A stretch of 39,728 bases of DNA from an uncultured Bacteroidota bacterium (GTDB lineage Bacteria; Bacteroidota; Bacteroidia; Bacteroidales; GWA2-32-17), in the NCBI GenBank assembly GCA_903872185.1, contig CAIQJL010000159.1, forward strand, positions 1 to 39,728. Direction: 5' to 3'. Shown here one piece after another: positions 11,281 through 37,337 of the stretch; within the stretch, counting starts at the first letter, position 1; every line of letters starts with the position of its first letter. The translations under genes and the position numbers were made by a program. The notes under the pieces are model-generated. The model had not been told where the DNA came from and searched no databases. It saw only the letters and a list, made by a program, of their open reading frames with translations.

Positions 11281-11301
11281 AGTAAATTTCAAAAAAAAAT
11301 A

Positions 11302-11309: not shown

Positions 11310-11345
11310 ACATAACAAAAATGTAAATTTTAACAAAGTACAATT

Positions 11346-16618: not shown

Positions 16619-18709
16619 TTATACTTTCCAAGTCTTAGTATATGCTGAACCTACTACACCTTTTTTGCAAAGTTTAGTAGTCATAAAATCTCCAGAATGT
16701 TTTGCTTGTACAGAAATTGCATCAGCTAAAGTAGCTTTACAAGAATTCTGAATGCAAGCCATGATCGCCTTTCTCGCATCAGTTATTGTTTCATCTTCCA
16801 TATTATCAAGTCCTGAAATTTCAGTTGGAATATCTAAAATGCAATTTTCATTTAATTCACGTTTTTTCAATCCATGATCAGCATCTGAAGCTAATTTCCA
16901 TGCCATTTTTATTGAATCTTCCATATTTCCTGCATAATCTGTTAACCAGCCCTTAGCATCTTTTGCTTTTACTGATTTTCCGGATAGAATAAAATATAGG
17001 AAATTTTTATAATTAGTAGAATTCATTTTCCTTAGTGGCCAATGACAACCTTCCATTCCAGGAATTACAGGAAGCGTAACTTCTGGCATTCCTAGTGATG
17101 CATTTTCTTCGGCAACTAAGTAATGACAATGTACCATTAATTCTAAGAATCCACCCAAACAACGTTTGCCATTAATAAAACCTACTGAAGTTTTAAAGTC
17201 AGAATTTAAACGACGTGCAGTAACTGACCATGCTTTGCTTAGTTCAATACCAATATTTGCATCTTCAATTGCAGGGAAAAATTCAGTTGTATCGGCACCA
17301 ACCATTTGCGTTGAAATATGAAAGTCGCCAGTAACAATTACATTTTCTATATTGTTAGATTTTAACCAGTCAATTGCTCTATTTAATTCAGCATTTACAT
17401 CATGATTGTAACTTTCGCGATTAATTGAAATAACACCAACCTTACCATCATGCTCAGCATTTACATATAATTGTTGCCATTCTGGCGAATCAATTTTGTC
17501 ATATACTTCAGGATACCATGCTTGTTTTGCAGCTTCTGGATGAAGTTTATGATAATTGTTAACTATCTTTTTCACTTCAGCAGCACCTAAATTACGGGTA
17601 ACAGCAAGAACTCCTTTACTGAATTGTGCACATAATTCGCCAATTAAATTCATTTGTGAAAGATGTGAACGATTTTCGTGTAACATTATACTTGTCATTT
17701 GGAAAAGCGGACCAAGTATCCATGAATTGAATTCAGCAATTTCTTCTTCATTCATCGACCAGTCAACCATTGGTCTAAAGTGATCAAGCGGATACCAATT
17801 CATTCCACCATCTTTCTTTTCAACTAAAATATCGGTTGGTGTAAATAATTCTCCATAATGTTGACTTAAATGATGTAAACAAGACCAAGTTAAGAAAGTT
17901 GCGCCGGCTGCACCAATAGCATCATGTGCTCTGAATGGATTTGGACCATAAAATTTACGAATATATTTATCTGTTTTCCAGAAAGGCATATTGGTTGCCT
18001 CATTAAATCTTGATGCTGCAAGTGTAAGTCCGCAGAATAAAACATCGAGCACAAATGCCCAGTTATCGCTAACCTGCATAGGAATTAAACCCAATGCCCA
18101 AAGTAGTTTAGAACTTGCAGAAGGTTTTGGTTCAACAATTTCCCATATTTTATTTACTTCATGAGGAAATGCAGGATGGGCAATTCCAACACCTAATTGA
18201 GAACTTGGAAATCCAGATGTTACTGACCAAATATCAATATCTGGAAAATTCTCTCTGAATGTTTTATAATGTTCTTTTTTAATATCAAGTATTTCAGGAA
18301 TTGCTTCGAGTAAAAATTTTGGGTTATGTGTTGCTAATCCTTTAGGAAGAGTTTTTCCATCATAAGAATATTTTATAATGTTACCCATAACTTTATTGGC
18401 ATTTCCTTTACCAAATGCTTTTACAAGACCTGGATATTGTTTTGCAATACCATCTGGAACACCAGGAAAATCGAGTGCTACAATTGGAATTCCAAAAGGC
18501 TCAAGTCTTGATCCAAGCTGCATAGTTTTTCCAGCACCAACTATTCCATTAGCTCCTGAAATAACCAATGCTCCTCTGTTATCAGCTTTTCCAAAAATTT
18601 GTTCTACTAATTCCTCAGCTGTTACAGGTAATTTTCCATTCTGAAATATTTCAAATACAGAACCTAATCCTAAGGTCTGTAATGTTGACGATCTCATTTG
18701 ATTTATCAT
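16619..18709 (-). CDS. 3-hydroxyacyl-CoA dehydrogenase/enoyl-CoA hydratase fusion (dehydrogenase first)
   Basis: This 696-residue protein has an N-terminal Rossmann domain (SGANGIVGAGKTMQLG at 51-66, an altered GxGxxG), then the dehydrogenase catalytic region with TSGFPSS, H178 (IAHPAFP) and E190 (KIWEIVE). The position normally filled by asparagine in PGFIVNR is D222 here. Residues about 420-620 form a crotonase domain with CLGGFLEL (E523) and GMPEVTL (E543), matching both catalytic glutamates of hydratases. The order is opposite to FadB. Likely role: oxidise 3-hydroxypimelyl-CoA to 3-oxopimelyl-CoA, and hydrate crotonyl-CoA or a related enoyl-CoA in the lower pathway. A GGAGGA ribosome site precedes the ATG. 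It is the last gene of the island, 21 bases after the thiolase. Confidence 0.75.
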   Translation of the reverse strand: MINQMRSSTLQTLGLGSVFEIFQNGKLPVTAEELVEQIFGKADNRGALVISGANGIVGAGKTMQLGSRLEPFGIPIVALDFPGVPDGIAKQYPGLVKAFGKGNANKVMGNIIKYSYDGKTLPKGLATHNPKFLLEAIPEILDIKKEHYKTFRENFPDIDIWSVTSGFPSSQLGVGIAHPAFPHEVNKIWEIVEPKPSASSKLLWALGLIPMQVSDNWAFVLDVLFCGLTLAASRFNEATNMPFWKTDKYIRKFYGPNPFRAHDAIGAAGATFLTWSCLHHLSQHYGELFTPTDILVEKKDGGMNWYPLDHFRPMVDWSMNEEEIAEFNSWILGPLFQMTSIMLHENRSHLSQMNLIGELCAQFSKGVLAVTRNLGAAEVKKIVNNYHKLHPEAAKQAWYPEVYDKIDSPEWQQLYVNAEHDGKVGVISINRESYNHDVNAELNRAIDWLKSNNIENVIVTGDFHISTQMVGADTTEFFPAIEDANIGIELSKAWSVTARRLNSDFKTSVGFINGKRCLGGFLELMVHCHYLVAEENASLGMPEVTLPVIPGMEGCHWPLRKMNSTNYKNFLYFILSGKSVKAKDAKGWLTDYAGNMEDSIKMAWKLASDADHGLKKRELNENCILDIPTEISGLDNMEDETITDARKAIMACIQNSCKATLADAISVQAKHSGDFMTTKLCKKGVVGSAYTKTWKV

Positions 18710-18730
18710 AATTTTTCCTCCAATTCTTTG

Positions 18731-19927
18731 TTATGAAACTCTAAAAATACCTGCAGTACCAACGTCGCCGGCTGCACAACCAAAAACTAATACATAACCA
18801 CCACCTAAATCAACAGCTTCTTCTAATGCTTCGATTATAATTCTGGTTAAGGTTGGTGCTTGTGGATGTCCCCATACAAGAGAACAACCAGTGTTATTCA
18901 TTTTTGCCCAATCATAATTCATTGTTTTTGCAAAAATTGCATCATTTACAGCAAAAGGATTGTGATTCTTAACAACTTTCATATCATTCATTGTTAATCC
19001 TGTGCGTTGAAGTAATTTTTGAACTGCCATACCAGGTGCTTCAGGCATTAACCCAGGTAATGTACGAACATCAACTTTGGCAATAAATTCGATATTAATT
19101 TCTGGTCTAGAGCTTAGCTCTTTTGACTTTTCTGGAGATGCAACAAGCAAAGTAGCCATTCCATCAGCAGCATGAGTTTGCGTGCCAGATGTTATACAAG
19201 TATCTAATTCTCTTTGGTCAGTTAATGTTTGTAAAGAAATCTCTCGAACCCCAATATCTTCGTTAATAGTACCAAGAAGTTTTCCTTGAACATTTAATAC
19301 ATCAAATGAAAAAAGAACTCTGTCAAGAAATCCAGAATTTTTTGCGTTAAAATATTGTTTATATCTGAGATATGTTAATTCATCAACTTCTTTTTTATCT
19401 ATTTTATATTTACGAGCTGCTAAACCAGCAGTAGCCATCATTGTTCCACCAGTTGAAGGATCGAAGTTGAAATTATCCCAAACATCAGCTATAACCTCAG
19501 TTCTTCTATATGAACGTCGCTCTGGAAAAACTCCAACTGGTGAATCACTTGTTCTGTCAAATGTTAAAACACCTGCAACATCATATGATTTTGAATTTAC
19601 TTCAGAGCCTGCAATAATTACTGAACTTAATCCAGTAGCACATGCTTGTTCCATTTGAAATCCAGGAATTCTTTGTCCCATGCAACTTGCAACAGCTGGT
19701 CCGTTCCAGAATTTCCAATGCCAGGGAATTGTTGATCCTATAACAAGATACTCAAGTTCTTTACGTGAAACTTTTCTTTTCCCTAAAATATTAGCCATTG
19801 CTTCACCAGCAAATTGACCTATGTTTACTTCTGCCAAAGGCGATGTTTGCCATGCAGGAAAGTAACTACTTCCCCATGTCCCGTAAGGAATTCTCGCATT
19901 TGGAAACATTGATTCGACTACTTTCAT
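18731..19927 (-). CDS. Thiolase family acyl-CoA acyltransferase
   Basis: This 398-residue thiolase has nucleophile C96 in EQACATG, H322 in a NHNPFA motif (in place of NEAFA), H354 in GHPQAP (normally GHPIGASG) and C384 in FGCAAGDVG. The catalytic Cys/His/His/Cys set is therefore present, while the loops are of the divergent SCP-x/archaeal sort. In this context it most likely cleaves 3-oxopimelyl-CoA with CoA to glutaryl-CoA and acetyl-CoA. The start is fixed by an unusually good AAGGAGG six bases before the ATG. Neighbours are the activator ATPase (66 bases upstream) and the dehydrogenase/hydratase fusion (21 bases downstream). Substrate assignment is inference. Confidence 0.8.
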   Translation of the reverse strand: MKVVESMFPNARIPYGTWGSSYFPAWQTSPLAEVNIGQFAGEAMANILGKRKVSRKELEYLVIGSTIPWHWKFWNGPAVASCMGQRIPGFQMEQACATGLSSVIIAGSEVNSKSYDVAGVLTFDRTSDSPVGVFPERRSYRRTEVIADVWDNFNFDPSTGGTMMATAGLAARKYKIDKKEVDELTYLRYKQYFNAKNSGFLDRVLFSFDVLNVQGKLLGTINEDIGVREISLQTLTDQRELDTCITSGTQTHAADGMATLLVASPEKSKELSSRPEINIEFIAKVDVRTLPGLMPEAPGMAVQKLLQRTGLTMNDMKVVKNHNPFAVNDAIFAKTMNYDWAKMNNTGCSLVWGHPQAPTLTRIIIEALEEAVDLGGGYVLVFGCAAGDVGTAGIFRVS

Positions 19928-19993: not shown

Positions 19994-20734
19994 CTAATTT
20001 AGAAGTACGCAACCGTATGCAGCTAAAAATTGAGATTTTGCTGGACTATCACATTTAGGAAATCTCTTTTTGAATAAGTCTACAATTAATGGATGATTAT
20101 CTGGAATACCGCCTGTAATAACTAAAAAATCTTCTACTGGCGATAATTCAACACTTCTATCAATAACGGAATTGTAAATGCCAAGAATAATATTTGGCAT
20201 TGTAGAACCTTTTTTAATCATTCCCACAATTTCTGAAACTGCAAACACTGTGCAGTAACTATTTATTTTTGTTTCTTCTGTAGCTTGTTTTGCAAATGAG
20301 GTAAATTCTTCTGCTGAGATATCTAGTCTAAATGCAATTTCTTCAATAAAAGAACCAGTGCCAGCAGCACATTTGCGATTCATCTTAAATTTATCTACCT
20401 GGCCAGTCTCACCAACAGTAACGTATTTAGTATCCTGACCACCGATATCAATAATTGAACATTTTTTATTGTAATGATTGAAAACTGCTTTTGCAAGAGC
20501 AATAATTTCTGAGTTAGAGACAAAAGGAATTTTTAATTCTTCACGTCCGTATCCACAGGTAAATACCGGATATTGAATTTCATGGTCAACCGAAAATTTG
20601 TCAATTATTTTTTGCGCTGCTTTATTGAAATCGAATCCAGTACGTGTTAAATGATAATCAATAATTTTATTGTTTTCATCAACCAAAACGCCTTTGGTGA
20701 AAGAAGAGCCAAGATCGATTCCTATGCGATACAT
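19994..20734 (-). CDS. BadF/BcrA/HgdC-type activator ATPase
   Basis: The predicted 246-residue protein has the ASKHA fold motifs: IGIDLGSSFTKG at the N-terminus, IDIGGQDTKYV (95-105), and KCAAGTGSF with C122, plus NSYCTVFAVSE with C161. These two cysteines match those that hold the [4Fe-4S] cluster between the subunits of HgdC. The family hydrolyses ATP to push a low-potential electron onto a 2-hydroxyacyl-CoA dehydratase, class I benzoyl-CoA reductase or double-cubane partner. The start was set at the second methionine (20734), because MYRIGIDLG is the normal opening and the upstream 12 residues fall in a repeat. Its partner is the HgdB-like protein immediately upstream. Confidence 0.88.
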   Translation of the reverse strand: MYRIGIDLGSSFTKGVLVDENNKIIDYHLTRTGFDFNKAAQKIIDKFSVDHEIQYPVFTCGYGREELKIPFVSNSEIIALAKAVFNHYNKKCSIIDIGGQDTKYVTVGETGQVDKFKMNRKCAAGTGSFIEEIAFRLDISAEEFTSFAKQATEETKINSYCTVFAVSEIVGMIKKGSTMPNIILGIYNSVIDRSVELSPVEDFLVITGGIPDNHPLIVDLFKKRFPKCDSPAKSQFLAAYGCVLLN

Positions 20735-20746
20735 AAAGTTGATTTT

Positions 20747-20837
20747 TGCCACAAATTCACTAAGGCACAAAAAATCACTAAAGTAAATTTAGCAACTAGT
20801 AATTTGTGAAATTTAGTGTTTTTGCGTTTTAGTGGCA
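20747..20837. repeat. Degenerate CACAAA-type inverted repeat
   Basis: Arms beginning TGCCACAAATTCACTAAGGC and ending TTTTGCGTTTTAGTGGCA pair imperfectly over about 35 bases each. The wording (CACAAA...CACTAAGGCAC) resembles a dispersed hairpin element common in Bacteroidota intergenic DNA. It fills the gap between the HgdB-like gene and its ATPase. Confidence 0.65.
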
Positions 20838-20841
20838 TAAT

Positions 20842-22080
20842 TTATTTTCTTGATGATAATTGTTTAATAAATGTTTCGATCGCGATTAAGCTTTGTTCTT
20901 CACTATAACAACGTGAATCACATAAATCTCCATTGATTTCTAAGAATGGAATTTTGTTTTTATCATTTAATCTGTTTTGTAATCCAAAGCGATTGTTTGA
21001 ATTTCGTCCACAGGTTTTTGCATCATGATAAATAATACCATCTATAGAAAAATCTATCATTAATTTCTCTAGAACATTTTGCTTTGCATCGTCAGACCTT
21101 ACAATAAATAATTTACAATATGCAATTGCTGAAGATTCAAAAGGATCTTTTGGGTCAAGGTCGTCAAATACCCAGCTATTGCAATATGTTGAAGCAACAA
21201 CGCAAGTATCCATTCCTGCAAAAAGTTTTGACATACTGCTGAGTTTATACCATAATGGCATTCCGTCCCAGTATAATCTTAGTTTTTCACTTGGAATAGA
21301 GCTAATATTATTTTTAATTCTATTTTCAAGTTCAGCAAGAAGAATTTTGTAATAATCAACAGCATATTGGGTACCACGCATTATAACAATAGGTCCCATA
21401 TGAATTGCAGAATCAAAAAAGTTAATAGGAGATGGTTTGTGTTTTGCTGTTTCCAATACTTTTCGCCATAAAACACATCCTTCGTGTGACAATCTAACAG
21501 TTTCGCGGAATTTTTCTAAATCAAATTTTTGAGTAGCAACTTTTTCTAATTCTGGAACTAGATCTTTAAATTGATTTGCAATTCCGTTTATTATGCTCGG
21601 TGTTAATTCATTTATCCAAAGCGGAGTGTTTACCCCAAGTATTGGAACTTTAAAATGTTTTGCATAATACATAAACCAATCACCAACTTCGTGGCATTGA
21701 TTAGTGTTATAAACTAAAATATCGGGTTTGGGAACCGATTTAAATCCACTTTTTTGAAGTGGTGTTTCGTTTTGTAAAAATGCACCAATGTCAGCTGTTA
21801 AGTATGAACAAATATCAGGTGAATAGCCATGAGCAACAGCAGTTGGAATATATTTATCTGCTAATTTTGAAGCTCCTAACATTGCGCCGTGATTCTCAGG
21901 AAAGTAAACTTCAAAACCCATGGAATATAAAAGCTCTGCAGGTCCAACGCTTGTGCACCATGCAATTTTTTTATTTCCAGTTTCAGTAGCAATTCTTAGA
22001 CGAGAAAAATAATCGTCCATAGTTTTCCGTAAAGCATTTACGGATTGCAATTTTGCTACTTCTTTAATTTCTGAACTCAT
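20842..22080 (-). CDS. HgdB/BcrC-family 2-hydroxyacyl-CoA dehydratase or benzoyl-CoA-reductase-like subunit
   Basis: This 412-residue protein has the HgdB/BcrC/DCCP framework: WCTSVGPAELL (C42), FPENHGAMLGA, GYSPDICSYLTADIGAF (C91), VYNTNQCHEVGDWF (C129), and a C-terminal HDAKTCGRN (C357) and GDLCDSRCYSEEQ (C387, C391). C42, C91 and C129 are in the usual cluster-ligand positions; the late cysteines are candidates for a larger cluster. Class I benzoyl-CoA reductase and HgdAB need two different such subunits, but only one is present. It may therefore act as a homodimer, as in double-cubane proteins. The substrate is unknown. It sits 20 bases after dch and 107 bases before its ATPase gene. Confidence 0.8.
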   Translation of the reverse strand: MSSEIKEVAKLQSVNALRKTMDDYFSRLRIATETGNKKIAWCTSVGPAELLYSMGFEVYFPENHGAMLGASKLADKYIPTAVAHGYSPDICSYLTADIGAFLQNETPLQKSGFKSVPKPDILVYNTNQCHEVGDWFMYYAKHFKVPILGVNTPLWINELTPSIINGIANQFKDLVPELEKVATQKFDLEKFRETVRLSHEGCVLWRKVLETAKHKPSPINFFDSAIHMGPIVIMRGTQYAVDYYKILLAELENRIKNNISSIPSEKLRLYWDGMPLWYKLSSMSKLFAGMDTCVVASTYCNSWVFDDLDPKDPFESSAIAYCKLFIVRSDDAKQNVLEKLMIDFSIDGIIYHDAKTCGRNSNNRFGLQNRLNDKNKIPFLEINGDLCDSRCYSEEQSLIAIETFIKQLSSRK

Positions 22081-22100: not shown

Positions 22101-22874
22101 TTAACAATTTTTCCACTCAGCTTTTCTTTTTTCCATGAAAGAATTAATTCCTTCATTAGCATCATTAGTTTCCATCAAGTCTTTTACAAAAAGATTATGA
22201 AAAACAGGAAGATTTTTTAACATAAAATAGTCAAATGATGCTCTTGCTGCCTTAGTTGCATAACGTAATGAAATTGCAGATTTAGGACAAATATTTTTTA
22301 TTATCCATGCTTCAACTTCACGTTCTAAAGTTTCTTTATCTTCGAATACTTCATTTAAAAGACCAATGTTTTTAGCTTCTTCTGCATTAATTATTTTTCC
22401 AGTAATCAAAAGTTCTTCAGCTCTTGCATTTCCAATTTTTAAAGGCAGCATTATTGATGCTGGAGGTGCAAAAACACCTAACACAATTTCTGGCTGACCT
22501 AGTTTAGCTGTTTTGTCTGCAAAAAGGAAATTACACATTAATGGTAATTCGAGTCCACCGCCTAAGCATTGGCCAGAAATTTTAGCCATTGTAGGAATAT
22601 GTAAATCAAGAAGTGTAAAAAATATTTTGTGAAATGTTGTAAGCATTTCATCAGCTTTTTCTTTAGTGTGTTCCTCAACACTTGCACCGAAAGAAAAGTT
22701 TTTTCCTGCTCCTTCAAAAGTAATAAGTTTAATGTTATTATTTGTTTTGAAAGATTGAAGCAAAGGAATTAACTCATTCATCATAATATTGTCAAGAACA
22801 TTTCCTTTACCATCGTCAAGAATGATTCTTGCAACAGAATTATCGTGAGTGTACTCTACTTTTATTTTTTGCAT
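22101..22874 (-). CDS. dch: Cyclohexa-1,5-diene-1-carbonyl-CoA hydratase
   Basis: This 257-residue crotonase-family protein carries FSFGASVEEH (around 60-69), a stretch characteristic of dienoyl-CoA hydratases of benzoyl-CoA degradation, then CLGGGLELPL for the oxyanion hole and GQPEIVLGVFAPPAS. It would hydrate the diene made by benzoyl-CoA reductase to 6-hydroxycyclohex-1-ene-1-carbonyl-CoA. The immediate neighbours are oah (47 bases upstream) and the HgdB-like gene. The gene set makes this a firmer call than the sequence alone. A more general enoyl-CoA hydratase is the alternative. Confidence 0.85.
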   Translation of the reverse strand: MQKIKVEYTHDNSVARIILDDGKGNVLDNIMMNELIPLLQSFKTNNNIKLITFEGAGKNFSFGASVEEHTKEKADEMLTTFHKIFFTLLDLHIPTMAKISGQCLGGGLELPLMCNFLFADKTAKLGQPEIVLGVFAPPASIMLPLKIGNARAEELLITGKIINAEEAKNIGLLNEVFEDKETLEREVEAWIIKNICPKSAISLRYATKAARASFDYFMLKNLPVFHNLFVKDLMETNDANEGINSFMEKRKAEWKNC

Positions 22875-22921: not shown

Positions 22922-24016
22922 TTAGTCTTTTTTATAATTTGGAGATGTAACTTTTATTAATTCGTCATTCCATTCGTGACCTTTTGCTAGCATCTGACGA
23001 AGTTTAACAAAGTCTACCTCACGGTTTTCTTTTGGTCCTTCGTTGAAAGCACGGAATCCGGCTTTACCTTCGGTCATCATGTTTAATGCTAACCAATCTC
23101 TGTGACCTTCTTTATTAATATCCCATAAATTTAATTTATGAATACGAAGAGTGTTTATTGTTTTGCTTAAACAGTTTGGCATTGTATAAAGCAATTTGGT
23201 GCAATATTTATCAACAACTTCATCTAATGCAGTTAAATCAATTGTACCAGATTTCATAATTTCTTTTCCTTTTGCTAAATCTTCACCCTTTTTTGATTTT
23301 CCATATACAAGCTGTCCTTTATCGTCAACCCATTTATCAACTACCACCATGGGATTTGCAACATATTCGCCATTTACTTTTAAAGCAGGAACAACTTCAG
23401 TAAGTAATCCAAATCTTAAAGCTTCGTGAGCTGACCAAGGTTCACAAACGGTACATGAAAACATTGCATTTTCAATACCAACATAAAGTGGTAAAAAGTC
23501 TGTAGCACCTCCGATAGGAGCACTTCCGTGTTTAGGTCCGGCCTGGCCAAAACGAGCTAAATCCGAAGCAATTGAAAAATCGCAAGCCATTCCAATTTCC
23601 TGACCACCGCCGATTCTCATTCCGTTTACACGGCAAATAACTGGCTTATCATGCATCAATATTGATGAAACCATATCATTGAATATTCGCATATACTGTT
23701 TATATTCCTGTGGATTTCCTGCATAATATTCTGCATATTCTTTAGTGTTACCGCCTGTACAGAACGCTTTGTCGCCAACACCTGTAAAAACAACAGCAAC
23801 TACACTGCGATCGTTTGAAGATTCGCGCATAGCAAGAATTACTTCTTTTACTGCACTTGTAGTATAAGAGTTATACTGAGAAGGATTGTTAAGAAATATC
23901 CATGCATTAAATAAACCTTCTATTATATTTCCTTGGTTATCTTTTGCTGGACGTTTTTCGTAAATAATTTCTTTGTAAGTTGTTTCAACTAAATTGTGGC
24001 TTGATAATCCTGACAT
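22922..24016 (-). CDS. oah: 6-oxocyclohex-1-ene-1-carbonyl-CoA hydrolase (BamA/Oah)
   Basis: This 364-residue crotonase-family protein is longer than normal hydratases and carries the ring-hydrolase hallmarks: KRPAKDNQGNIIEGLFNAWI, NPSQYNSYTT, GDKAFCTGGNTKEY, NGMRIGGGQEIGMACDFSIA and FGQAGPKHGSAPIGGATDFLP. It adds water to the double bond and opens the ring of 6-oxocyclohex-1-ene-1-carbonyl-CoA to give 3-hydroxypimelyl-CoA. This family is a recognised marker gene of anaerobic aromatic degradation. It lies between had and dch, and a pair of GC-rich hairpins (24060-24137) separates it from had. Confidence 0.95.
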   Translation of the reverse strand: MSGLSSHNLVETTYKEIIYEKRPAKDNQGNIIEGLFNAWIFLNNPSQYNSYTTSAVKEVILAMRESSNDRSVVAVVFTGVGDKAFCTGGNTKEYAEYYAGNPQEYKQYMRIFNDMVSSILMHDKPVICRVNGMRIGGGQEIGMACDFSIASDLARFGQAGPKHGSAPIGGATDFLPLYVGIENAMFSCTVCEPWSAHEALRFGLLTEVVPALKVNGEYVANPMVVVDKWVDDKGQLVYGKSKKGEDLAKGKEIMKSGTIDLTALDEVVDKYCTKLLYTMPNCLSKTINTLRIHKLNLWDINKEGHRDWLALNMMTEGKAGFRAFNEGPKENREVDFVKLRQMLAKGHEWNDELIKVTSPNYKKD

Positions 24017-24138: not shown

Positions 24139-25200
24139 TTATTTAAAATCCGGAACTAATACTGAACGTTTTTTATATTTGTGTTCCAGAGTATTTTTAA
24201 ATACTTCATTAATTTGTGACATTGGAAATGTTTCTACAAAATCATGAATTTTTAATTTACCAGAAGCAATTAATTCAACTACTTCAGGGTATAATTCAGG
24301 TTTGCAACCCCATGTTCCAATTACTTTTGCATCAAATGCCATTAAGTTACTTAAACGAACTTCTGGTTTTTCCATTGTAAATCCAACAATAGACAGAGTA
24401 GATGTATAAGTTATTAAATTATATCCTAATTCTTGTCCCGCTTTTGTTCCAGAAACTTCAAATATTTTCCAGCCATAACGTGATACTCCAAGAGTTTTTG
24501 TTATTTCTCTAATTTGTTCTTTTACTGCTTTAATATCTAATCCTTTTACATTTAATGTTGCATCTATACCATTAGCTTTTGCAGAATTTAATTTATCATC
24601 GTCAATATCTAAAGCCAAAACTTTTGCTCCCATAATTTTTGCAATTAGAGCAGCATAAACACCAACCCCACCAATTCCAATAACAATAGCTAAATCGCCA
24701 CTTTCAAGTTCAGATTTTTTAATAACCTGATAAGGTGTTGATATAGCGTCAGCAATTACTGCAAGTTGTTCTAAAGTGTAGTTATCAAGAATCTTTTCGG
24801 GAACTGGACATAAATATTTTGAAGGAACTTTTATATGTGATGCAAACCCACCATGGAAATCGTTACCTGGCATTAGTTGTTTTTGGCACATATTGCTACG
24901 TCCTTTTTTACAAAGTTCGCATTCGCCACAAGGTAAAACTGCAGGAATAATTACTTTTTTACCAATCCATTCTGATGGTCCGGCAATTACTTCACCTGAA
25001 ATTTCATGACCTAATGTTAACGGCAATTCTTTTTTTGTTTTTACTCCAAAATGCCAAAAACTTAAATCGGTATGACAAACTCCACAACCAGCAATTTTAA
25101 CTAATGCTTCGCCTTCAGCTAATTCAGGAAACGCACTTTCAACTAATTTAAAATCGGCTTTTAATTCTGTCATTTGCCATGAATACATCTTTCCTTCCAT
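24139..25200 (-). CDS. had: 6-hydroxycyclohex-1-ene-1-carbonyl-CoA dehydrogenase
   Basis: This 353-residue zinc alcohol dehydrogenase has catalytic-zinc residues in GCGVCHTD (C42 and H43) and GHE (H65, E66), structural-zinc cysteines C91, C94, C97 and C105, and an NAD fold with GIGGVGVYAALIAK near residue 175. YSWQMTELKADFKL and SFWHFGVKTKKELP match the Had/BamQ type. It would oxidise 6-hydroxycyclohex-1-ene-1-carbonyl-CoA with NAD+. Translation may instead start at the second methionine (25188), which follows an in-frame GGAAGG. The gene is 33 bases after the ketopantoate-reductase-family gene. Confidence 0.88.
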   Translation of the reverse strand: MEGKMYSWQMTELKADFKLVESAFPELAEGEALVKIAGCGVCHTDLSFWHFGVKTKKELPLTLGHEISGEVIAGPSEWIGKKVIIPAVLPCGECELCKKGRSNMCQKQLMPGNDFHGGFASHIKVPSKYLCPVPEKILDNYTLEQLAVIADAISTPYQVIKKSELESGDLAIVIGIGGVGVYAALIAKIMGAKVLALDIDDDKLNSAKANGIDATLNVKGLDIKAVKEQIREITKTLGVSRYGWKIFEVSGTKAGQELGYNLITYTSTLSIVGFTMEKPEVRLSNLMAFDAKVIGTWGCKPELYPEVVELIASGKLKIHDFVETFPMSQINEVFKNTLEHKYKKRSVLVPDFK

Positions 25201-25233: not shown

Positions 25234-26217
25234 TTATTCAAATCTGAAAGTATCTTTCTTTTTATAATTATTTACGCCGTTTTTGTGTCCGATTGCATTT
25301 ACTAGATTAGTGAATGTTAAATTTAACGGAGTTCGTATATAATGTTTTCTTCCGTATTCAACAATTTTTCCATTCATGTAATCGATTTCGGTTTCTTTAT
25401 TGTTAATTAAATCTACTGCAAGTGATGGCATATGATTACCTGCTGCCATTAAATAACGAATACATAATTTAACAAAATTTTCAGGCAATTTAATTTCTTC
25501 TGCTTTTGCGACTTCAACAGCTTCGTATAAAAGTTGCTCAACAATTTCTAATGTGTCTGGATGACTCATTGCTTCTTTCATAGTTAGCTTTGAAATGGCA
25601 CAAAGAGGACTAAGAGCAGCATTAAGAATGGTTTTTTCCCATATTTTATCAGCAATAACAAATGAGTCTGTCATTTTTGTTTCAAGATTTACGCTTGATA
25701 AAGTATCAGCAATCCATTGTGCCATCTCTTTTTGTGAATCGTCAATAGATCCAACAAAATTAGGTGGATTAAAGAAATTTATATTTACCACATTTGGTGC
25801 TTGTAAATTTCCTGCAAAGTTAACTACCATTCTAAAAATTCTTGAATCTGTAAAATGGTTTAAATATTTTTTTCTGATGTCAATTCCATTTTGAGCACTT
25901 AATAAAAATAGATCTTTTTTACCACTTTTATCTAGTTCATCTAAAATTGAATCAACGTGGTATGCTTTTACAGCACTTATTAATAAATCAAAATCATGCT
26001 CCATTAATTCTTCGATAGAATTATAAACATGTTTGAAATATGATTTTTTTTCTACTTTGCCACATAATTCAATGCCATGAGATCTTATTAAACTTAGTTT
26101 CTCTCTGTCAAGATCTGTTATTGCAACTTCACAACCAGCTTCGTTAAAATGAACTGCAAGCGTTTGTCCAATCGGTCCTAATCCAATTATCCCAATTTTG
26201 GAAAGTTGTTTTTTCAT
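25234..26217 (-). CDS. Ketopantoate reductase-family NAD(P) dehydrogenase
   Basis: The 327-residue protein has an N-terminal GLGPIGQTLA Rossmann motif and a C-terminal helical domain with WEKTILNAALSPLCAI, in which K and N match the catalytic pair of 2-dehydropantoate 2-reductase (ApbA/PanE). The sequence is complete and the key residues are kept, so it is probably active. It sits in the aromatic operon, 33 bases from both neighbours, with no pantothenate genes nearby. It may act on a 2-oxo or 3-hydroxy intermediate of the pathway rather than ketopantoate. This is inference; real PanE activity is possible. Confidence 0.75.
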   Translation of the reverse strand: MKKQLSKIGIIGLGPIGQTLAVHFNEAGCEVAITDLDREKLSLIRSHGIELCGKVEKKSYFKHVYNSIEELMEHDFDLLISAVKAYHVDSILDELDKSGKKDLFLLSAQNGIDIRKKYLNHFTDSRIFRMVVNFAGNLQAPNVVNINFFNPPNFVGSIDDSQKEMAQWIADTLSSVNLETKMTDSFVIADKIWEKTILNAALSPLCAISKLTMKEAMSHPDTLEIVEQLLYEAVEVAKAEEIKLPENFVKLCIRYLMAAGNHMPSLAVDLINNKETEIDYMNGKIVEYGRKHYIRTPLNLTFTNLVNAIGHKNGVNNYKKKDTFRFE

Positions 26218-26250: not shown

Positions 26251-28338
26251 TTAAAGAATTATTCTTGCATCTACAGCACAAACTCTATCCTCAAAAGCAA
26301 ATACAGGGTTAATGTCAAGCTCTTTTATTTCAGGGTTATCTGTTACAAGTTTTGAAACTCTTTGAATTAATTCGATTAATAATTTCTTGTTAACTCCTTT
26401 GTTTCCTCTATAACCATCAATTAGTTTTACTGCTTTTATTGTTTCAACCATTTCTTGTGCTTCTACATCAGATATTGGCGCTATGTTAAATTTTACATCT
26501 TTAAATATTTCAACAAAAATACCACCCATTCCGAACATAATCAAATGGCCCAATCCTTCTTCTTTTTTTGCTCCAATAATAAGTTCTAATCCTTTAGGTT
26601 GTTGCTTTTGAATGAAAAATTTCAAGTTGTCAACTTTTAATTTCTCCTGCATATCCTTAACAGCAATTATTACCTGATCTTCATTAGAAATATTTAATGC
26701 AACACCTCCAACATCACTTTTATGAATAACTTTTTCTGAATCGGCTTTTATTACAACTGGGAAACCAATTTTAGTTGCAGCATCTACTGCGTCTCTTGCA
26801 TCATTTGCAATTCTCCATTCTGAAACTGGAATTGAATATGCACCCAATATTGAATAAACTTCATTTGCAGTAAGAACTTCACGATTTGCAGATTTTGCTT
26901 TTTCAATTATAATTTTTGAAATATTTTTGTCTGAATCTATAAATTGTTTTATTTCGCCCTTATTTCTTGAACGGATGTCATTATATCTTACCATTGCAGC
27001 AAGTGCTTTTGCAGCAGTTTCTGCAAAATCAAAACAAGGAATAGAACCATCTTTTAAAATTTTTGAAGTTCCTTGCCATTTTTGTTTATCTGTCATATAA
27101 TTACAGACAATAGGCTTTTTACTGTTTTTAGCAGCTTCTGCAAACTCTCTGGCAACACTTTCACAATCAACAAAAGGTGGTGTAACAAAATTTACATAAA
27201 TATTATCAATATTTTCTTCGTTCATCATAACTTCAAAAGCCGATTTGAAATGTGATGCTCCTGCTGTTGCAACAACGTCCAAAGGATTATTGATTGAAGC
27301 AGATTCAAGCATTGTAGTTTTTAAAATTGCTTTTGCTTTATCTGAAAGTTGAGGAACTTCTAAGCCATTACTGACTAATTCATCAATTGCAATTACTGAA
27401 GGACCTCCTGTATTGGTGATTATACCAACTCTTTTTCCGTGGGGAATAGGTTGGCAAGAGAATGCTACAGCAGCATTACACAAATCTTCTAAGTTTGTAA
27501 ATGAAAGAATTCCAACTTTTTTGAAAATAACTTCCATTGAAATACTTCCTGCTAAACCTCCAATATGTGAACGTGATGCTTCTGCACCTTTATCAGTGCG
27601 TCCTGCTGTCATCGCTAAAATTGGCTTTTTAGCTGAAACTTCAAGTGCAACATCCATGAATTCTTTCGGATCAGTTAGGCTTTCAACATAAAGCACAATA
27701 GCCCTGGTATTCTCATCGTTTCCATAATAACGAATAATTTCAGGAATAGAAACATCAGAAGCGTTTCCATTTGAGGTATACATTCTCATTCCTATTCCCC
27801 AGTCGTAGAATGCTTGCATAATTACTGCACCAACACCACCACTTTGAGCTACAACAGAAATAAAACCTGGTTCGGGAAAAGTGAATGTAAAATTGCAATA
27901 TGCATTAAATTTTGGATCAGAATTTATAGTACCCTGACAATTTGGACCAATGATACGAATATTATATTTTTTAGCACGAGCAAGAAAGTCATCTTCAAGA
28001 GCCTGGCCTTCTTTACCCATTTCTTTAAATCCAGCAGTGTTTATAATTATAACTTTTACTCCTTTTTTTCCACAATTTTCAACTTCTTCGGGTACAAAAG
28101 GCGGTGGAATAACGATATGTGCCAATTCAACTTCTCCAGGAACATCTAAAATGGAAGGGTATGCTTTTAGTCCACGGATTTCATCTATTTTTGGATTAAT
28201 TGGATAAATTGGGCCGGTAAATCCGTAATGTAAAAGGTTTTTTATGATAACATTTCCGATAGAAAGTTCTTTAACTGAAGCACCTATTAAAGCTATTGAT
28301 TTTGGTTCGTAGAAATAATTTAAGCCGTTGCTACCCAT
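26251..28338 (-). CDS. ADP-forming acyl-CoA synthetase (fused alpha and beta)
   Basis: This 695-residue protein has the CoA-binding domain (FYEPKSIALIGAS, 10-21), the two succinyl-CoA-ligase-like domains, the phospho-histidine H258 in SRSHIGGLAG, and a C-terminal ATP-grasp domain from about 475 (FPVVIKADSEKVIHKSDVGGV). It is the fused form of acetate--CoA ligase (ADP-forming), which interconverts acyl-CoA, ADP and Pi with acid, CoA and ATP. In this operon it could activate benzoate, or make ATP from acetyl-CoA or another thioester. An AAGGAA lies before the ATG. It heads the second transcription unit behind its own promoter-like sequence. Confidence 0.9.
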   Translation of the reverse strand: MGSNGLNYFYEPKSIALIGASVKELSIGNVIIKNLLHYGFTGPIYPINPKIDEIRGLKAYPSILDVPGEVELAHIVIPPPFVPEEVENCGKKGVKVIIINTAGFKEMGKEGQALEDDFLARAKKYNIRIIGPNCQGTINSDPKFNAYCNFTFTFPEPGFISVVAQSGGVGAVIMQAFYDWGIGMRMYTSNGNASDVSIPEIIRYYGNDENTRAIVLYVESLTDPKEFMDVALEVSAKKPILAMTAGRTDKGAEASRSHIGGLAGSISMEVIFKKVGILSFTNLEDLCNAAVAFSCQPIPHGKRVGIITNTGGPSVIAIDELVSNGLEVPQLSDKAKAILKTTMLESASINNPLDVVATAGASHFKSAFEVMMNEENIDNIYVNFVTPPFVDCESVAREFAEAAKNSKKPIVCNYMTDKQKWQGTSKILKDGSIPCFDFAETAAKALAAMVRYNDIRSRNKGEIKQFIDSDKNISKIIIEKAKSANREVLTANEVYSILGAYSIPVSEWRIANDARDAVDAATKIGFPVVIKADSEKVIHKSDVGGVALNISNEDQVIIAVKDMQEKLKVDNLKFFIQKQQPKGLELIIGAKKEEGLGHLIMFGMGGIFVEIFKDVKFNIAPISDVEAQEMVETIKAVKLIDGYRGNKGVNKKLLIELIQRVSKLVTDNPEIKELDINPVFAFEDRVCAVDARIIL

Positions 28339-28637: not shown

Positions 28638-29228
28638 TTAATGTTCAGGAAATGAAAGAGCTTCAGTTAATACAAAAACTGCCTGAAGATAAGATGTTGG
28701 GCAAAGAGGGAAACATTCTTTACATGAATTACATTCTTTTGCTGCTATTTCGGGAATAAAACTTATTTCTTTATTTATTCCTCTGTCAATAAACCCAACT
28801 GCATTTAATTTTTTAACTTCAGAACAGTATCTTACACATAGTCCACAATGAACACAAAAAGAAGCTTCTTTTTCAAAACGATTTTTATCGGCACCATATT
28901 CATGAGCGAGTTCTTGTAATGCTAATGAATTTGGAGCATGGGCAAGAAGTAATTCTAAAATAGTTTTTCTTATTCTATCAATTTTCTCAGACCTTGTTTT
29001 CACTACCATATTCGCTTCGGCCTGATAAACACATGAGACAACAAGTTTAGTCCATCCTCCAGCATCAATTTCAACAATACAAAGACGACAACCGCCAAAA
29101 GGTATTAATTTCTCATGGTGACAGAGTTTTGGAATAAATATACCAGCACTTTGAGCTGCCTCTAGGACGGTCATGCCCTCATTGGCTTTAATTATTTTTC
29201 CGTCAATATTTAAGTTGATAATTTTCAT
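28638..29228 (-). CDS. bamI: BamI-like (NuoG N-terminal-like) iron-sulfur subunit
   Basis: This 196-residue protein has a [2Fe-2S] domain with C36, C47, C50 and C66 (PKLCHHE, FGGCRLC, VSCV). A helical segment (LLAHAPNSLALQELAHEYG) with possible histidine ligands follows, and then two [4Fe-4S] motifs (SFCVHCGLCVRYC and CNSCKECFPLC). This equals the N-terminal part of complex I subunit G without the molybdopterin-like domain. In the class II benzoyl-CoA reductase complex such a subunit would pass electrons between the NuoF-like flavoprotein and the Hdr-like core. Spacing is 5 bases from the NuoF-like gene. The letter BamI is assigned by gene order. Confidence 0.82.
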   Translation of the reverse strand: MKIINLNIDGKIIKANEGMTVLEAAQSAGIFIPKLCHHEKLIPFGGCRLCIVEIDAGGWTKLVVSCVYQAEANMVVKTRSEKIDRIRKTILELLLAHAPNSLALQELAHEYGADKNRFEKEASFCVHCGLCVRYCSEVKKLNAVGFIDRGINKEISFIPEIAAKECNSCKECFPLCPTSYLQAVFVLTEALSFPEH

Positions 29229-29233
29229 TTTAT

Positions 29234-31147
29234 CTATCTGGTTATTATTCTTTCTTCTTCAGTAATAGGAGAGGGTAGAGGTTCTCCAGAAATTTTCTTT
29301 ACTGCGCCAAATTTAGTTGGACAAACTTCGAAACAAGTTCCACAATTTGTGCATTTCTCTTGATTAATTACATGTATTTTTTTCTTTTCGCCATCAATTG
29401 CATCTACAGGACATTTTTTTAGACAAATCATACATGCAACACACTTATCAGTATCAATATGATATTTTATAAGCTCTTTGCAATACAAGGACGGACATTT
29501 CTTTTCTTTGATGTGAGCCTCATATTCATGTCTGAAATATTGTAAAGTACTTAAAAATGGATTCGGTGCAGATTTTCCTAATGCGCAAAGCGAAGCCTCC
29601 ATCGCAGTTTCAGAAAGTACTTCTAAAAGTTCAATATCACCTTCTTTTCCTTTTCCTTCTGTGATATTTGTTAAGATTTTATTCATCTGTCTTAATCCTT
29701 CACGACAAGGAATACATTTCCCACATGATTCCTCGGTTAAAAAGTTAATGAAATATCTTGCTACATCGACCATGCAAGTATCCTCATCCATGATAATCAT
29801 TCCACCAGAACCCATCATTGAACCGGCTTTTGTTAGCTCATCAAAACCCACTTCAAGATCAAGTTTGTCTTCTGGGATACAACCTCCGGAAGGACCTCCG
29901 GTTTGTACAGCTTTAAATTTTTTACCTCCAGGAATACCACCACCAATTTTATAAATAATATCTCTTAAAGTCATACCCATTGGTATTTCTACAAGACCTG
30001 TATTGGTGATTTTTCCAACTAGTGAGAAAATCTTAGTTCCTTTACTGCTTTCTGTTCCTATTTTATTATACCAGTCGGCTCCTTTATTGATAATTAGCGG
30101 AACATTTGCCCATGTCTCAACATTATTCAAAACGCTTGGTTTATTCCAAAGTCCAACAATGTTTGAACGCACATATTTTGGTCTTGGTTCTCCAACTCTA
30201 CCTTCCAATGCTGTCATTAATGCAGTTGATTCTCCACAAACGAAAGCACCCGCACCTTGATGTACTTTTACAACAAAGTCGAATCCAGAGCCAAGAATAT
30301 TTTTTCCTAGCAAGCCATATTGTTCTGCCTGCTTAATTGCTAAATTAATATTAACAACAGCCAAAGGATATTCTTGTCTAACATAAACATATCCTTCTTG
30401 AGCACCAACAGCATAACCTCCGATAATTAATCCTTCAAGAATGGAATGTGGATTTCCTTCAAGTAAAGCTCTATCCATGAATGCTCCGGGATCACCTTCA
30501 TCAGCATTAACAATTACATATTTTGTTTTTTCAGGATCGTTTCTTGAGCCCTCCCATTTTTTCCCTGTTGGAAAACCTGCACCCCCACGGCCTCTCAGGT
30601 TGGATTTTTTAACTTCATCCAAAACCAGCTCAGGAGTCATCTTAGAAAGAGATTTTACTAAAGCCGAATAACCATAAATTGCTATATAGTCATCAATGCT
30701 TTTGGAATCTATTTTTATATTGTTACAAATCACATTTCTTTCCTGATTTTTATAAAAAGGAATATCATATTCATGTATTGCTTTTTCGCCATTTGAGGAG
30801 TCAACATAAAGTAAACGGTCAACTACTTTCTTTTCTTTAATGGTTTGCGAGACAATTTCAGTAACATCCTGTGGAGTTACTTGTAAATAACAAATTTCTT
30901 CAGGATAAATAACAACAACAGGTCCTCTTTCACAAAAACCAGGACAACCCGTTCCTTTTATATCAACACTTGCACTTAAGTTTTGATTTTCAAGTTCAGA
31001 TTTAAATGCTGCAATTACTTCATTTGCGCCAGAAGCTAAACAACCGGCACCTGCACAAACTGAAATACAAGGTTTATTAGGATCTCTTTTGGATAAAATA
31101 TCTTGTCTGAATTTTTCTAATTCTTCTGCGGTCTTAAACGATTCCAT
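29234..31147 (-). CDS. bamH: BamH-like (NuoF-like) NADH-binding flavoprotein with extra ferredoxin domain
   Basis: This 637-residue protein has an N-terminal thioredoxin-like [2Fe-2S] domain (CAGAGCLASG and CPGFCERGP), then the NuoF core with GRGGAGFPTGKKWE and NADEGDPGAFMDR for FMN/NADH and ESCGKCIPCREG for a [4Fe-4S] cluster. The C-terminal tail has two [4Fe-4S] motifs (DKCVACMICLKKCP and EKCTNCGTCFEVCP). This is the HydB-like layout seen in flavin-based electron-transfer complexes. It would exchange electrons with NAD(H) for the benzoyl-CoA reductase complex. A GAGG site precedes the ATG. Assigned as BamH by order and content. Confidence 0.86.
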   Translation of the reverse strand: MESFKTAEELEKFRQDILSKRDPNKPCISVCAGAGCLASGANEVIAAFKSELENQNLSASVDIKGTGCPGFCERGPVVVIYPEEICYLQVTPQDVTEIVSQTIKEKKVVDRLLYVDSSNGEKAIHEYDIPFYKNQERNVICNNIKIDSKSIDDYIAIYGYSALVKSLSKMTPELVLDEVKKSNLRGRGGAGFPTGKKWEGSRNDPEKTKYVIVNADEGDPGAFMDRALLEGNPHSILEGLIIGGYAVGAQEGYVYVRQEYPLAVVNINLAIKQAEQYGLLGKNILGSGFDFVVKVHQGAGAFVCGESTALMTALEGRVGEPRPKYVRSNIVGLWNKPSVLNNVETWANVPLIINKGADWYNKIGTESSKGTKIFSLVGKITNTGLVEIPMGMTLRDIIYKIGGGIPGGKKFKAVQTGGPSGGCIPEDKLDLEVGFDELTKAGSMMGSGGMIIMDEDTCMVDVARYFINFLTEESCGKCIPCREGLRQMNKILTNITEGKGKEGDIELLEVLSETAMEASLCALGKSAPNPFLSTLQYFRHEYEAHIKEKKCPSLYCKELIKYHIDTDKCVACMICLKKCPVDAIDGEKKKIHVINQEKCTNCGTCFEVCPTKFGAVKKISGEPLPSPITEEERIITR

Positions 31148-31155
31148 ATATTCCT

Positions 31156-31608
31156 CTATTTGTAGCTATTTAAAACTTCTGCTGTTTCACTTACTGAAAT
31201 CTTTCCGTGAGTTTTTCCATTGATTTCTATTACTGGTCCTAAAGCACAGCAACCAAGACAGTTAACCGTTTCTAGACTGAATTTCATGTCAACATCAGTT
31301 TCTCCAGGCTTTATTCCGGTAAGGTCTTCGACTGTTTCTAATACACGTTTTGCACCACGAACATGACAAGCAGTGCCCATGCATATATGAACTTCATGGC
31401 GTCCTTTAGGTACTAAACTAAAAGCTTTATAAAAACTTGCAATATGCATTGTTCTGGTTAACGGAATTTGTAATTTTTCACTTACTCTTTCTAATGCTTC
31501 TTTTGGTAGCCAATGATTTTCACTTTGAATATCAAGTAAAATCTGAATAAGCGAACTGGCTTCACTATTATGTTTTTCGATTAAATAATCTATTTTTTTG
31601 TTATCCAT
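31156..31608 (-). CDS. bamG: BamG-like (NuoE-like) [2Fe-2S] subunit
   Basis: This 150-residue protein has a helical N-terminus and a thioredoxin-like domain with cluster ligands C76, C81, C117 and C121 (ICMGTACHV and VNCLGCCALGP). This is the 24-kDa type subunit that pairs with NuoF. The gene is 8 bases from the NuoF-like gene and 9 from the MvhD-like gene, which fits one complex. Length is normal for NuoE. Letter assignment follows the G. metallireducens gene order as I recall it. Confidence 0.86.
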   Translation of the reverse strand: MDNKKIDYLIEKHNSEASSLIQILLDIQSENHWLPKEALERVSEKLQIPLTRTMHIASFYKAFSLVPKGRHEVHICMGTACHVRGAKRVLETVEDLTGIKPGETDVDMKFSLETVNCLGCCALGPVIEINGKTHGKISVSETAEVLNSYK

Positions 31609-31617
31609 AGTAATATT

Positions 31618-32385
31618 TTAAGCAAGCGCGTAACTTTTGTTATTCATATCATATCTTACTAATCCTTGTTTTGAGGAATCGTTCATATGTTTTGCAACTT
31701 CTGAAGGAGTAAGACCTAAAGATGCTGAAATTTCACCAGTAGAAAGATTTTTTTTCTGTAAGAGTATAGTTATTTGAGCTTTTATTAATTTATCTAAAAT
31801 TAACTCATTAAATAATTTCTCAAATTCTTCACTGTTAAAAAACTTATGATATGCTTCTTCAGTTCTTTCTGAAACATGAAGCCTTTGAGTTAATACAAGT
31901 TTAATGTATGGAATAATTTTTTTAATTGCCTCGAATTTAAATGCTAAAGTTTCAGCATCTATACCTTCGGCTTTACCAATAGGACCCATTTTAGTGAGTT
32001 CTGTGCTATATTCATTCATGAAATTTGCAAAACGTATTCCTTCACCTGCCGAGACCCATTCAATTCTCAGACGTTCAGGATAAATACCTACATGTTTTAA
32101 TAGTTTTCTAAAAACTTGCACCATGCTAAATGCATTAAAGTTGCCATTTGTTACATAATGACAATCGCACAGATGACAACCTCCAACAAAAACTCCATCT
32201 TGTCCGTTTGATAAAGCCCGATGAATATGAAGCATGTCAACGCGAGCAGAACACATTACTCTGATAAGTCTGATATGTGGTGGATATTGAAAACGGGAAA
32301 CGCCACATAAGTCTGCCCCACCGTAACAACACCAATTGCATATTATTCCTATTATTTTTGGTTGAAAATTATGATCTGAACTCAT
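31618..32385 (-). CDS. bamF: BamF-like (MvhD-like) subunit with C-terminal helix-turn-helix-like extension
   Basis: The first about 130 residues match the MvhD/FlpD delta subunit: CNWCCYGGADLCGVSR (C16, C19, C20, C27), IRVMCSARVD (C45), and GGCHLCDCHY (C70, C73, C75). Such subunits hold a [2Fe-2S] cluster and link HdrA to the electron donor. All cysteine positions are ordinary Cys codons, with no in-frame TGA. An extra about 120 residues follow, ending in a winged-helix-like segment (LSTGEISASLGLTPSEVAKHM, then QGLVRYD). The extension may be structural rather than DNA-binding. It lies 36 bases after the HdrA-like gene. Confidence 0.85.
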   Translation of the reverse strand: MSSDHNFQPKIIGIICNWCCYGGADLCGVSRFQYPPHIRLIRVMCSARVDMLHIHRALSNGQDGVFVGGCHLCDCHYVTNGNFNAFSMVQVFRKLLKHVGIYPERLRIEWVSAGEGIRFANFMNEYSTELTKMGPIGKAEGIDAETLAFKFEAIKKIIPYIKLVLTQRLHVSERTEEAYHKFFNSEEFEKLFNELILDKLIKAQITILLQKKNLSTGEISASLGLTPSEVAKHMNDSSKQGLVRYDMNNKSYALA

Positions 32386-32421
32386 TATTTATATATTGTT
32401 ATCAATATTGTTTTATACATT

Positions 32422-35484: not shown

Positions 35485-35522
35485 GGATTTTCTATTAAAT
35501 CACTTTATCTTTTTACAATTAA

Positions 35523-36680: not shown

Positions 36681-36689
36681 TTTTTTAAA

Positions 36690-36725
36690 TTCCAAGTTTC
36701 AAATCACAAGTACCAAATTCCAAGT
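36690..36725. repeat. CCAAGT/CAAATC short-word repeat
   Basis: The words TCCAAGTTTCAAATC, ACAAGTACCAAATTCCAAG repeat a CAAGT-CAAAT theme directly between bamC and bamD. Such strings recur in Bacteroidota intergenic DNA; copy number elsewhere cannot be seen here. Confidence 0.4.
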
Positions 36726-36768
36726 TATTTTCTTAACTTCTCTTGGTTTTTAGAACTTATAGCTTTCT

Positions 36769-37320: not shown

Positions 37321-37337
37321 GATTTTCGCCCTCCACT

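Follow-up and report, generated by a model that had tools for sequence, protein, structure and literature searches.

We analysed a 39,728-nucleotide stretch of DNA from an uncultured Bacteroidota bacterium (contig CAIQJL010000159.1, assembly GCA_903872185.1), referred to here as the window, in which an ATP-driven gene pair, encoding a HgdB/HadB-like protein of the HGD-D family and its activator ATPase (archerase), lies within a locus for the anaerobic breakdown of benzoyl-coenzyme A (benzoyl-CoA). The HGD-D protein belongs to a clade that tracks the ring hydrolase Oah/BamA and is found with either a class I or a class II (Bam) benzoyl-CoA reductase. The best reading of this pattern is that of a dehydratase tied to the breakdown of benzoyl-CoA and not to the Bam reductase, which would form a module with a PanE-type reductase and a CoA ligase and may bring aromatic acids into the benzoyl-CoA pathway. 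In its specific form, to which we give a probability of somewhat less than one half (about 0.45), the pair would constitute an ATP-activated ketyl-radical (R)-2-hydroxyacyl-CoA dehydratase, i.e., a homodimer with its own archerase, perhaps acting on an aryl-lactyl-CoA that feeds benzoyl-CoA. No prior description of the pair was found in a literature search covering few subscription journals.

The first line of evidence is the number of HGD-D genes. The window assembly (G000; genome 100% complete, 2.21% contamination) contains one PF06050 gene, and because this model also picks up class I subunits, scoring 215 bits for the BcrB and 213 bits for the BcrC of the related locus L005, a second subunit should have shown up. 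With one PF06050 gene genome-wide, this bacterium is therefore considered to lack both a class I reductase, which takes two HGD-D and two ATPase subunits, and a second dehydratase subunit. Two candidate explanations were rejected: a second subunit encoded elsewhere in the genome, given a sole PF06050 gene and a model that scores BcrB and BcrC above 210 bits, and a relic of a class I cluster, since a class I BcrB-like gene occurs as a separate gene near the pair in 45 of 80 related loci. The initial annotation, made from the letters alone, had described a pair between dch and the thiolase gene with a single HgdB-like protein, and had argued that a spare class I enzyme was not at hand. Both open reading frames (ORFs) are indeed present on the minus strand at those positions, with the corresponding family matches and flanks, and the single HGD-D gene holds for the whole genome. 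The homodimer that it had raised would be the simplest assembly for such a gene, and the dehydratase-type function that it had listed among the options fits the fold, the HadB-like motif and the partner genes described below.

The activator also passes TIGR00241 (160.7 bits, cut-off 125.4). Its ORF is listed from a TTG at 20770 (19994-20770, 258 amino acids), and judged by eye the start is probably the ATG at 20734. Two cysteines, in KCAAGTG and CTVFA (C134 and C173 of the 258-residue ORF), are present as expected for a bridging [4Fe-4S] cluster, and together with the CoA_E_activ family match they identify the protein, at the level of sequence, as an archerase.

The HGD-D protein stays under the cut-off of all four NCBIfam equivalogs that it matches, namely HadB (210.7 bits, cut-off 750), BcrB (TIGR02260; 157.7 bits, cut-off 486.55), BzdO (TIGR03191; 88.7 bits, cut-off 448.6) and the double-cubane model NF040772 (52.9 bits, cut-off 350), and so do three further family members (L039, L130 and L047). 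In a tree of 61 rows, including 34 family members, 8 BcrB, 5 BcrC and 10 sister sequences (35-38% identity), the 34 family rows make up one side of a branch with a support of 98/100, without any BcrB, BcrC, MbdO, BzdO or sister row. YjiM, BzdO, MbdO and HadB have long branches in this tree, which BzdO entered with its middle part as X, and the grouping of HadB with BzdO was flagged as a long-branch join and set aside. In this tree the HGD-D protein represents a well-supported clade, for which no dedicated curated model exists. Its nearest characterised relative by phmmer is HadB (E 1.1e-47, vs 4.5e-29 for MbdO), which is also nearest to its AlphaFold2 (AF2) model (predicted local distance difference test score, pLDDT, 89.4): HadB (3o3m_A) aligns with a Z-score of 47.2 over 391 residues at 1.9 Å and 27% identity, followed by BzdO (Z 44.5), MbdO (39.9) and DCCP (33.2). 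The protein combines the HGD-D fold with the three cluster cysteines of the dehydratases, C91, C129 and C357.

The active-site motifs point in the same direction. The family reads W-C-T-S44-V-G46-P and P-E62-N-H where HadB has W-S-T-S37-V-F39-P and P-E55-N-Q, and the BcrB of L005 has V-P-G-N and P-E-I-N at the corresponding places. S44 and E62, whose HadB equivalents by alignment are S37 and E55, are kept in 34/34 family rows. For BzdO, published work describes active-site roles of Glu65, Ser44, His131 and Trp46, with Ser44 and Glu65 beside the open iron (PMC11971306). The phmmer alignment shows that the Glu and the Ser are kept in the HGD-D protein, in which His131 is replaced by V132 and Trp46 by G46.

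An additional layer of complexity comes from the other cysteines, which were counted over 80 sequences (the window and 79 loci). Of the extra candidate ligands named in the initial annotation, C387 and C391 stand as alternatives to each other, one or the other being present in 77 of 78 readable sequences (the exception is L055), whereas C357 is a universal ligand together with C91 and C129; two positions had been missed, C300, found in 80/80 sequences, and C42, found in all 79 with a letter at that column. The HGD-D protein thereby carries a six-cysteine set, three per half (C42, C91, C129, C300, C357 and C387 or C391), which differs from that of YjiM at one position. In the alignment C42 and C300 are missing from HadB, the 8 BcrB and the 10 sister rows. 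The C300 column is occupied by a cysteine in YjiM, which has another one column from C42, and MbdO has one at the C42 position in the hidden Markov model (HMM) alignment, shifted by one column in the MAFFT alignment.

This pattern is suggestive of a homodimeric double-cubane [8Fe-9S] reductase like DCCP, acting on a CoA ester or a small molecule without any dehydration, and the combination of one HGD-D gene with one activator gene likewise resembles yjiM/yjiL, which we take to be of the DCCP type. The double cubane of BzdN has six ligands, three per outer domain (PMC11971306), and such a cluster may exist in the HGD-D protein. Against this explanation, the match to the double-cubane model is far below its cut-off (53 vs 350 bits), DCCP is structurally more distant than HadB (Z 33 vs 47), no cysteine matches those of YjiM at window columns 326/328, and E62, which corresponds to the acid next to Fe-OH2 in BzdO, is retained by the window protein, with YjiM and BcrC both showing a gap at this column. 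MbdO, too, has a cysteine at or beside the C42 position, which speaks against a firm claim. Moreover, extra cysteines alone prove nothing, because 46 BcrB sequences from the same loci have extra conserved cysteines of their own even though their relative BzdO holds a single cubane, the place of a second cubane being taken in BzdO by Trp46 and the substrate ring (PMC11971306). We thus regard a DCCP-like reductase as doubtful, well behind the dehydratase. A combined form, which we consider equally tentative, is that each protomer of a dehydratase holds a catalytic [4Fe-4S] cluster and an electron-storing second sub-cluster on C42, C300 and C387 or C391. A single gene would then accomplish what takes a second subunit in known dehydratases, and together with PanE and the CoA ligase the pair would reduce aryl-2-oxo acids and channel them directly, as cinnamoyl-type CoA esters, into anaerobic ring cleavage.

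The distribution of the family connects it to ring cleavage. Out of 118 relatives obtained in the family scan, the 80 best loci were retained. One or more of oah, had and dch (>45% identity) stand in the surrounding stretch of 62 of these 80, many of the contigs being short. The 28 loci of at least 60% identity include 21 with an activator within 400 bases, 12 with a BcrB-like gene and two with bam genes (L017 and L018), so that the pair, which the initial annotation had suggested looking for beside other bam genes, is not absent from all other bam loci. Among the 52 loci below 60% identity, 33 have a BcrB-like gene, and in 34 (34 of all 80; domains checked in one) a fusion of PanE with the activator lies no more than 900 bases from the HGD-D gene. 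Across genomes, the protein (called at E 1e-20 or better) and Oah (over its cut-off) occur in the same four of 345 sampled genomes of the window phylum, with best protein hits 53-100% identical (hypergeometric 1.7e-9, uncorrected for relatedness), and all four carriers have PanE at 54-100% identity. In the phylum of genome G350, deltaproteobacterial according to the record of its locus L080 (148 genomes sampled, Oah called at E 1e-90 and PanE at E 1e-48), the protein is present in 21 genomes at 50-57% identity and Oah in 34 (31 over the cut-off), with 16 genomes having both (hypergeometric 2e-8), and PanE is present in 13 genomes, 11 of them carriers (hypergeometric 1.9e-9, both values uncorrected for relatedness). 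Finally, in 18 locus genomes (17 of the 18 loci showing no oah, had or dch, plus L047) Oah was over the cut-off in 12 and PanE matched (E 1e-30) in 15; Oah was not found in the genomes of L025, L047, L050, L063, L072 and L079.

Some loci have particular surroundings. L047 (G348, Myxococcaceae) has BcrB-like, activator, dch and had genes beside the pair and no Oah match at E 1e-60 in its genome. In L108 (G345, Planctomycetota), molybdenum-hydroxylase-like genes adjoin PanE and had, and this genome carries the family without Oah at E 1e-60. Four loci (L103, L105, L150 and L151) have, between dch and had, an ORF of about 270 amino acids with an HVHLAxREH start that by eye resembles a metal hydrolase.

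Among the options of the initial annotation was a low-potential electron step linked to the Bam complex, in favour of which stands the genomic position inside a class II locus. The comparison disfavours this idea: since the pair is found beside both class I and class II reductase genes, with a BcrB-like gene nearby in 45 of the 80 loci and bam genes in 2, it is not regarded as a Bam electron step, and Geobacter metallireducens, a Bam user, is reported to have no catalytic HGD-D subunit (PMC1924859). A Bam-coupled function is accordingly the least probable of the options by a wide margin.

What the pair acts on is suggested by its neighbours. PanE-type and GlcD-type enzymes both act on 2-oxo/2-hydroxy acids, and since they are unrelated to each other, the occurrence of both near the pair argues for a 2-hydroxyacyl-CoA substrate. 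The PanE of the window passes the TIGR00745 model and contains N110, K195, S265 and E277, in agreement with the Asn, Lys, Ser and Glu that we take to be the catalytic residues of PanE/ApbA enzymes; on model and residues it qualifies as a 2-oxoacid reductase of this type. A survey covered 20 stretches belonging to the phylum of G350 (the HGD-D position in L127 and L134 being taken from the search of its genomes for the protein). A CoA ligase, either ADP-forming, AMP-forming or both, adjoins the pair in 11 (two AMP-forming ones checked with Pfam, the others assigned by likeness), and a GlcD-GlcF-like ORF of 860-880 amino acids lies within 3 kb in five (L120, L121, L126, L134 and L135; domains of one checked). 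The gene order in L130 is DctP-DctM-PanE-activator-HGD-D-CoA ligase-thiolase (DctP and DctM by Pfam). The PanE genes of L102, L150 and L151 are flanked by a PaaK-like ligase gene (by eye and likeness) on one side and by IorA on the other, beside dch-had-oah, a context that points to aryl-2-oxo acids; the IorA of L102 is over its cut-off. An IorA search of 10 genomes gave matches at E 1e-60 in nine, with four over the cut-off, all four from the phylum of G350. The benzoate-CoA ligase model TIGR02262 is matched at E 1e-60 in six of eight genomes (none in G000 and G160) and nowhere over its cut-off, and thus does not indicate which ligase makes benzoyl-CoA. As regards the ligases, a type of 580-589 amino acids adjoins the HGD-D gene in G059 and G294 (ligases of L110 and L113; AMP-binding domain in that of G294), and in L039 a 155-residue protein encoded at 11246-11713, between HGD-D and the PanE-activator gene, resembles part of it.

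Two other dehydratase-like functions have to be weighed against these partners. In one, the pair would dehydroxylate an aromatic or alicyclic CoA intermediate within the ring-reduction pathway. The location of the pair among dch, had and oah would suit this, as would the molybdenum-hydroxylase-like gene (by eye and likeness, perhaps hydroxybenzoyl-CoA reductase) near it in L008, L108 and L110, but the PanE-type and GlcD-type partners generally act on 2-oxo/2-hydroxy acids and not on ring ketones, and L130 has no ring-reduction gene within 6.5 kb on either side; we find this function improbable. In the other, the dehydratase would run in reverse, hydrating glutaconyl-CoA derived from benzoate to (R)-2-hydroxyglutaryl-CoA, from which the ADP-forming ligase would make ATP and PanE would oxidise the freed acid to 2-oxoglutarate for biosynthesis. 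Such a route would account both for the link to Oah with either reductase class and for an ADP-forming ligase adjoining the HGD-D gene. However, the adjacent ligase is AMP-forming in G294 and, by likeness, in G059, which favours activation of an acid, and the tripartite ATP-independent periplasmic (TRAP) transporter genes of L130 suggest acid uptake, making the reverse direction about as improbable as the removal of a ring hydroxyl.

In the proposed dehydratase pathway, the PanE-type enzyme would reduce a 2-oxo acid, and the neighbouring CoA ligase would form the thioester of the resulting (R)-2-hydroxy acid. The activator would then use ATP to drive one electron into the HGD-D protein, whose [4Fe-4S] site (C91, C129 and C357, with E62 and S44 alongside) would expel the alpha-hydroxyl via a ketyl radical to give a 2-enoyl-CoA. 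The likeliest substrate would be an aryl-lactyl-CoA, e.g., phenyllactyl-CoA, and the cinnamoyl-type product would be shortened to benzoyl-CoA, to be dearomatised and opened by the enzymes of the same gene cluster. Two articles describe the mechanism of the known dehydratases: the archerase supplies a single electron, the catalytic subunit's cluster binds the carbonyl of the thioester, and the alpha-hydroxyl is expelled by way of ketyl radicals, with the second subunit serving as the electron store (PMC8473912, PMC11574389). In a homodimer this store might be either the partner protomer or a second cluster on the extra cysteines.

Several observations weigh against the proposed dehydratase. The known 2-hydroxyacyl-CoA dehydratases are described as heterodimers (PMC8473912, PMC11574389), and HadB has no counterpart of the invariant C42 and C300. 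A second HGD-D subunit for a heterodimer is missing in G000, G457 and G467, the last two being the only ones of 15 other carriers with one HGD-D gene; because the remaining 13 have 2 to 5, the single-gene argument is strict for three of 16 genomes, with part of the surplus being class I reductase (G059 and G294). The link to Oah is likewise incomplete in the phylum of G350: no Oah match was found for five of the 21 carriers, and a carrier of at least 50% identity is lacking in 18 of the 34 Oah genomes. PanE is just 31-37% identical in this phylum, which makes its orthology unsure, and among the 11 genomes in which PanE accompanies the protein the context supports the chemistry in four and no linked gene was seen in six. 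In the window, had-oah-dch stand between the pair and the ligase and PanE genes, so that this ligase could equally be a benzoate ligase. Lastly, in the window phylum the IorA-like genes of G000, G160 and G294 do not reach the cut-off, and no match at E 1e-60 is present in G059.

The setting is, from its gene content, a class II benzoyl-CoA locus (Table 1), which is considered real because BamB, the active-site subunit, matches the Geobacter benzoyl-CoA reductase 4z3w with 1273 bits and both Had and Oah pass their equivalog cut-offs. The 183-residue BamC candidate had no Pfam match at 1e-5. The 107-base gap between the genes of the pair (20735-20841) contains TTCACAAATT and TTAGTGAATTTGTGGC; a 16-base word from this gap occurs once in the window, at its own place. 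The protein of 696 amino acids encoded at 16619-18709 has weak Pfam matches confined to its C-terminal crotonase domain and none in the N-terminal 400 residues or so; because its gene is placed after that of the thiolase, a role in the oxidation of 3-hydroxypimelyl-CoA is suggested. Also near the pathway genes, positions 15482-16102 encode a rubredoxin-like domain joined to a hydrophobic stretch that by eye is probably membrane-spanning.

Table 1. Features of the benzoyl-CoA locus and codons of the HGD-D protein; positions are those of the window.
Feature	Positions	Strand	Basis
HGD-D (HgdB/HadB-like) catalytic protein, 412 amino acids	20842..22080	-	PF06050, 204.5 bits (cut-off 28.4); AF2 model, pLDDT 89.4
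Activator (archerase) ATPase, about 246 amino acids from ATG 20734	19994..20734	-	PF01869, 114.4 bits (cut-off 31.5)
C42 codon, invariant in family, absent from HadB, BcrB and sister rows compared	21955..21957	-	alignment
C91 codon, universal cluster ligand	21808..21810	-	alignment
C129 codon, universal cluster ligand	21694..21696	-	alignment
C300 codon, invariant in family, aligned with YjiM Cys	21181..21183	-	alignment
C357 codon, universal cluster ligand	21010..21012	-	alignment
Codons 387-391; C387 and C391 alternate in family	20908..20922	-	alignment
Thiolase (398 amino acids) and 696-residue protein with C-terminal crotonase domain	16619..19927	-	family and domain matches
Thiolase	18731-19927	-	other flank of pair, opposite dch
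Dch, dienoyl-CoA hydratase	22101..22874	-	TIGR03189, best NCBIfam match, 207 bits, under cut-off 292.5
Oah/BamA ring hydrolase	22922..24016	-	TIGR03200, 597 bits, over cut-off 464
Had/BamQ	24139..25200	-	TIGR03201, 456 bits, over cut-off 339
PanE/ApbA-type 2-oxoacid reductase, 327 amino acids, likely functional partner	25234..26217	-	TIGR00745, 160.9 bits, over cut-off 141.35
ADP-forming acyl-CoA ligase, 695 amino acids, likely partner	26251..28338	-	ATP-grasp_5, Succ_CoA_lig, CoA_binding_2
Class II reductase genes bamI-bamB	28638..39344	-	letters C to I given from order and domains

The interest of the clade is that putative ATP-primed radical enzymes, for which NCBIfam has no named model, follow anaerobic ring cleavage whichever benzoyl-CoA reductase is used, in hosts that include uncultured Bacteroidota, Ignavibacteria and deltaproteobacteria. 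Its members could be taken for subunits of benzoyl-CoA reductase or HgdB, which would inflate counts of class I reductases. The cysteine set of the family is intermediate between those of dehydratases and double-cubane proteins, and a one-gene dehydratase, if true, would probe the need for the second, electron-storing subunit of the known enzymes. The pair is also a candidate for the alpha-dehydration step that is proposed in PMC13416013 on the way to benzoyl-CoA.

Compared with known systems, the pair is closest to HadBC and its activator (3o3m, 4eht), with which it shares the fold of the catalytic subunit, the three cluster cysteines, the Ser/Glu motif (S37/E55 in HadB, S44/E62 here) and an archerase. 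It differs from HadBC in the one HGD-D gene of the window genome, in the invariant C42, C300 and C387/C391, and in having G46 for F39 of HadB. The catalytic subunits of class I reductases (BcrB, BzdO and MbdO) have the same fold, the three cluster cysteines and the equivalent of E62, but these reductases require a pair of HGD-D genes and a pair of ATPase genes, BcrB and MbdO fall in a separate clade, the motif of BcrB is unlike that of the family, and His131 of BzdO is V132 in the window protein. With DCCP and YjiM-YjiL the pair has in common a single HGD-D gene with a single activator, an aligned C300 and a cysteine within one column of C42, whereas the YjiM cysteines at columns 326/328 are unmatched and the window protein keeps the E62 that YjiM lacks. 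The closest parallels in terms of pathway are the phenyllactyl-CoA dehydratase FldBC and the route from phenylpyruvate to benzoyl-CoA put forward for BzS1, for which the same sequence from 2-oxo acid to 2-hydroxyacyl-CoA, enoyl-CoA and benzoyl-CoA is proposed and in which the authors mark the dehydratase as not yet assigned (PMC13416013). The Fld enzymes, as portrayed there, consist of several subunits and work with a CoA transferase, in contrast to the one HGD-D gene and the CoA ligase of the window.

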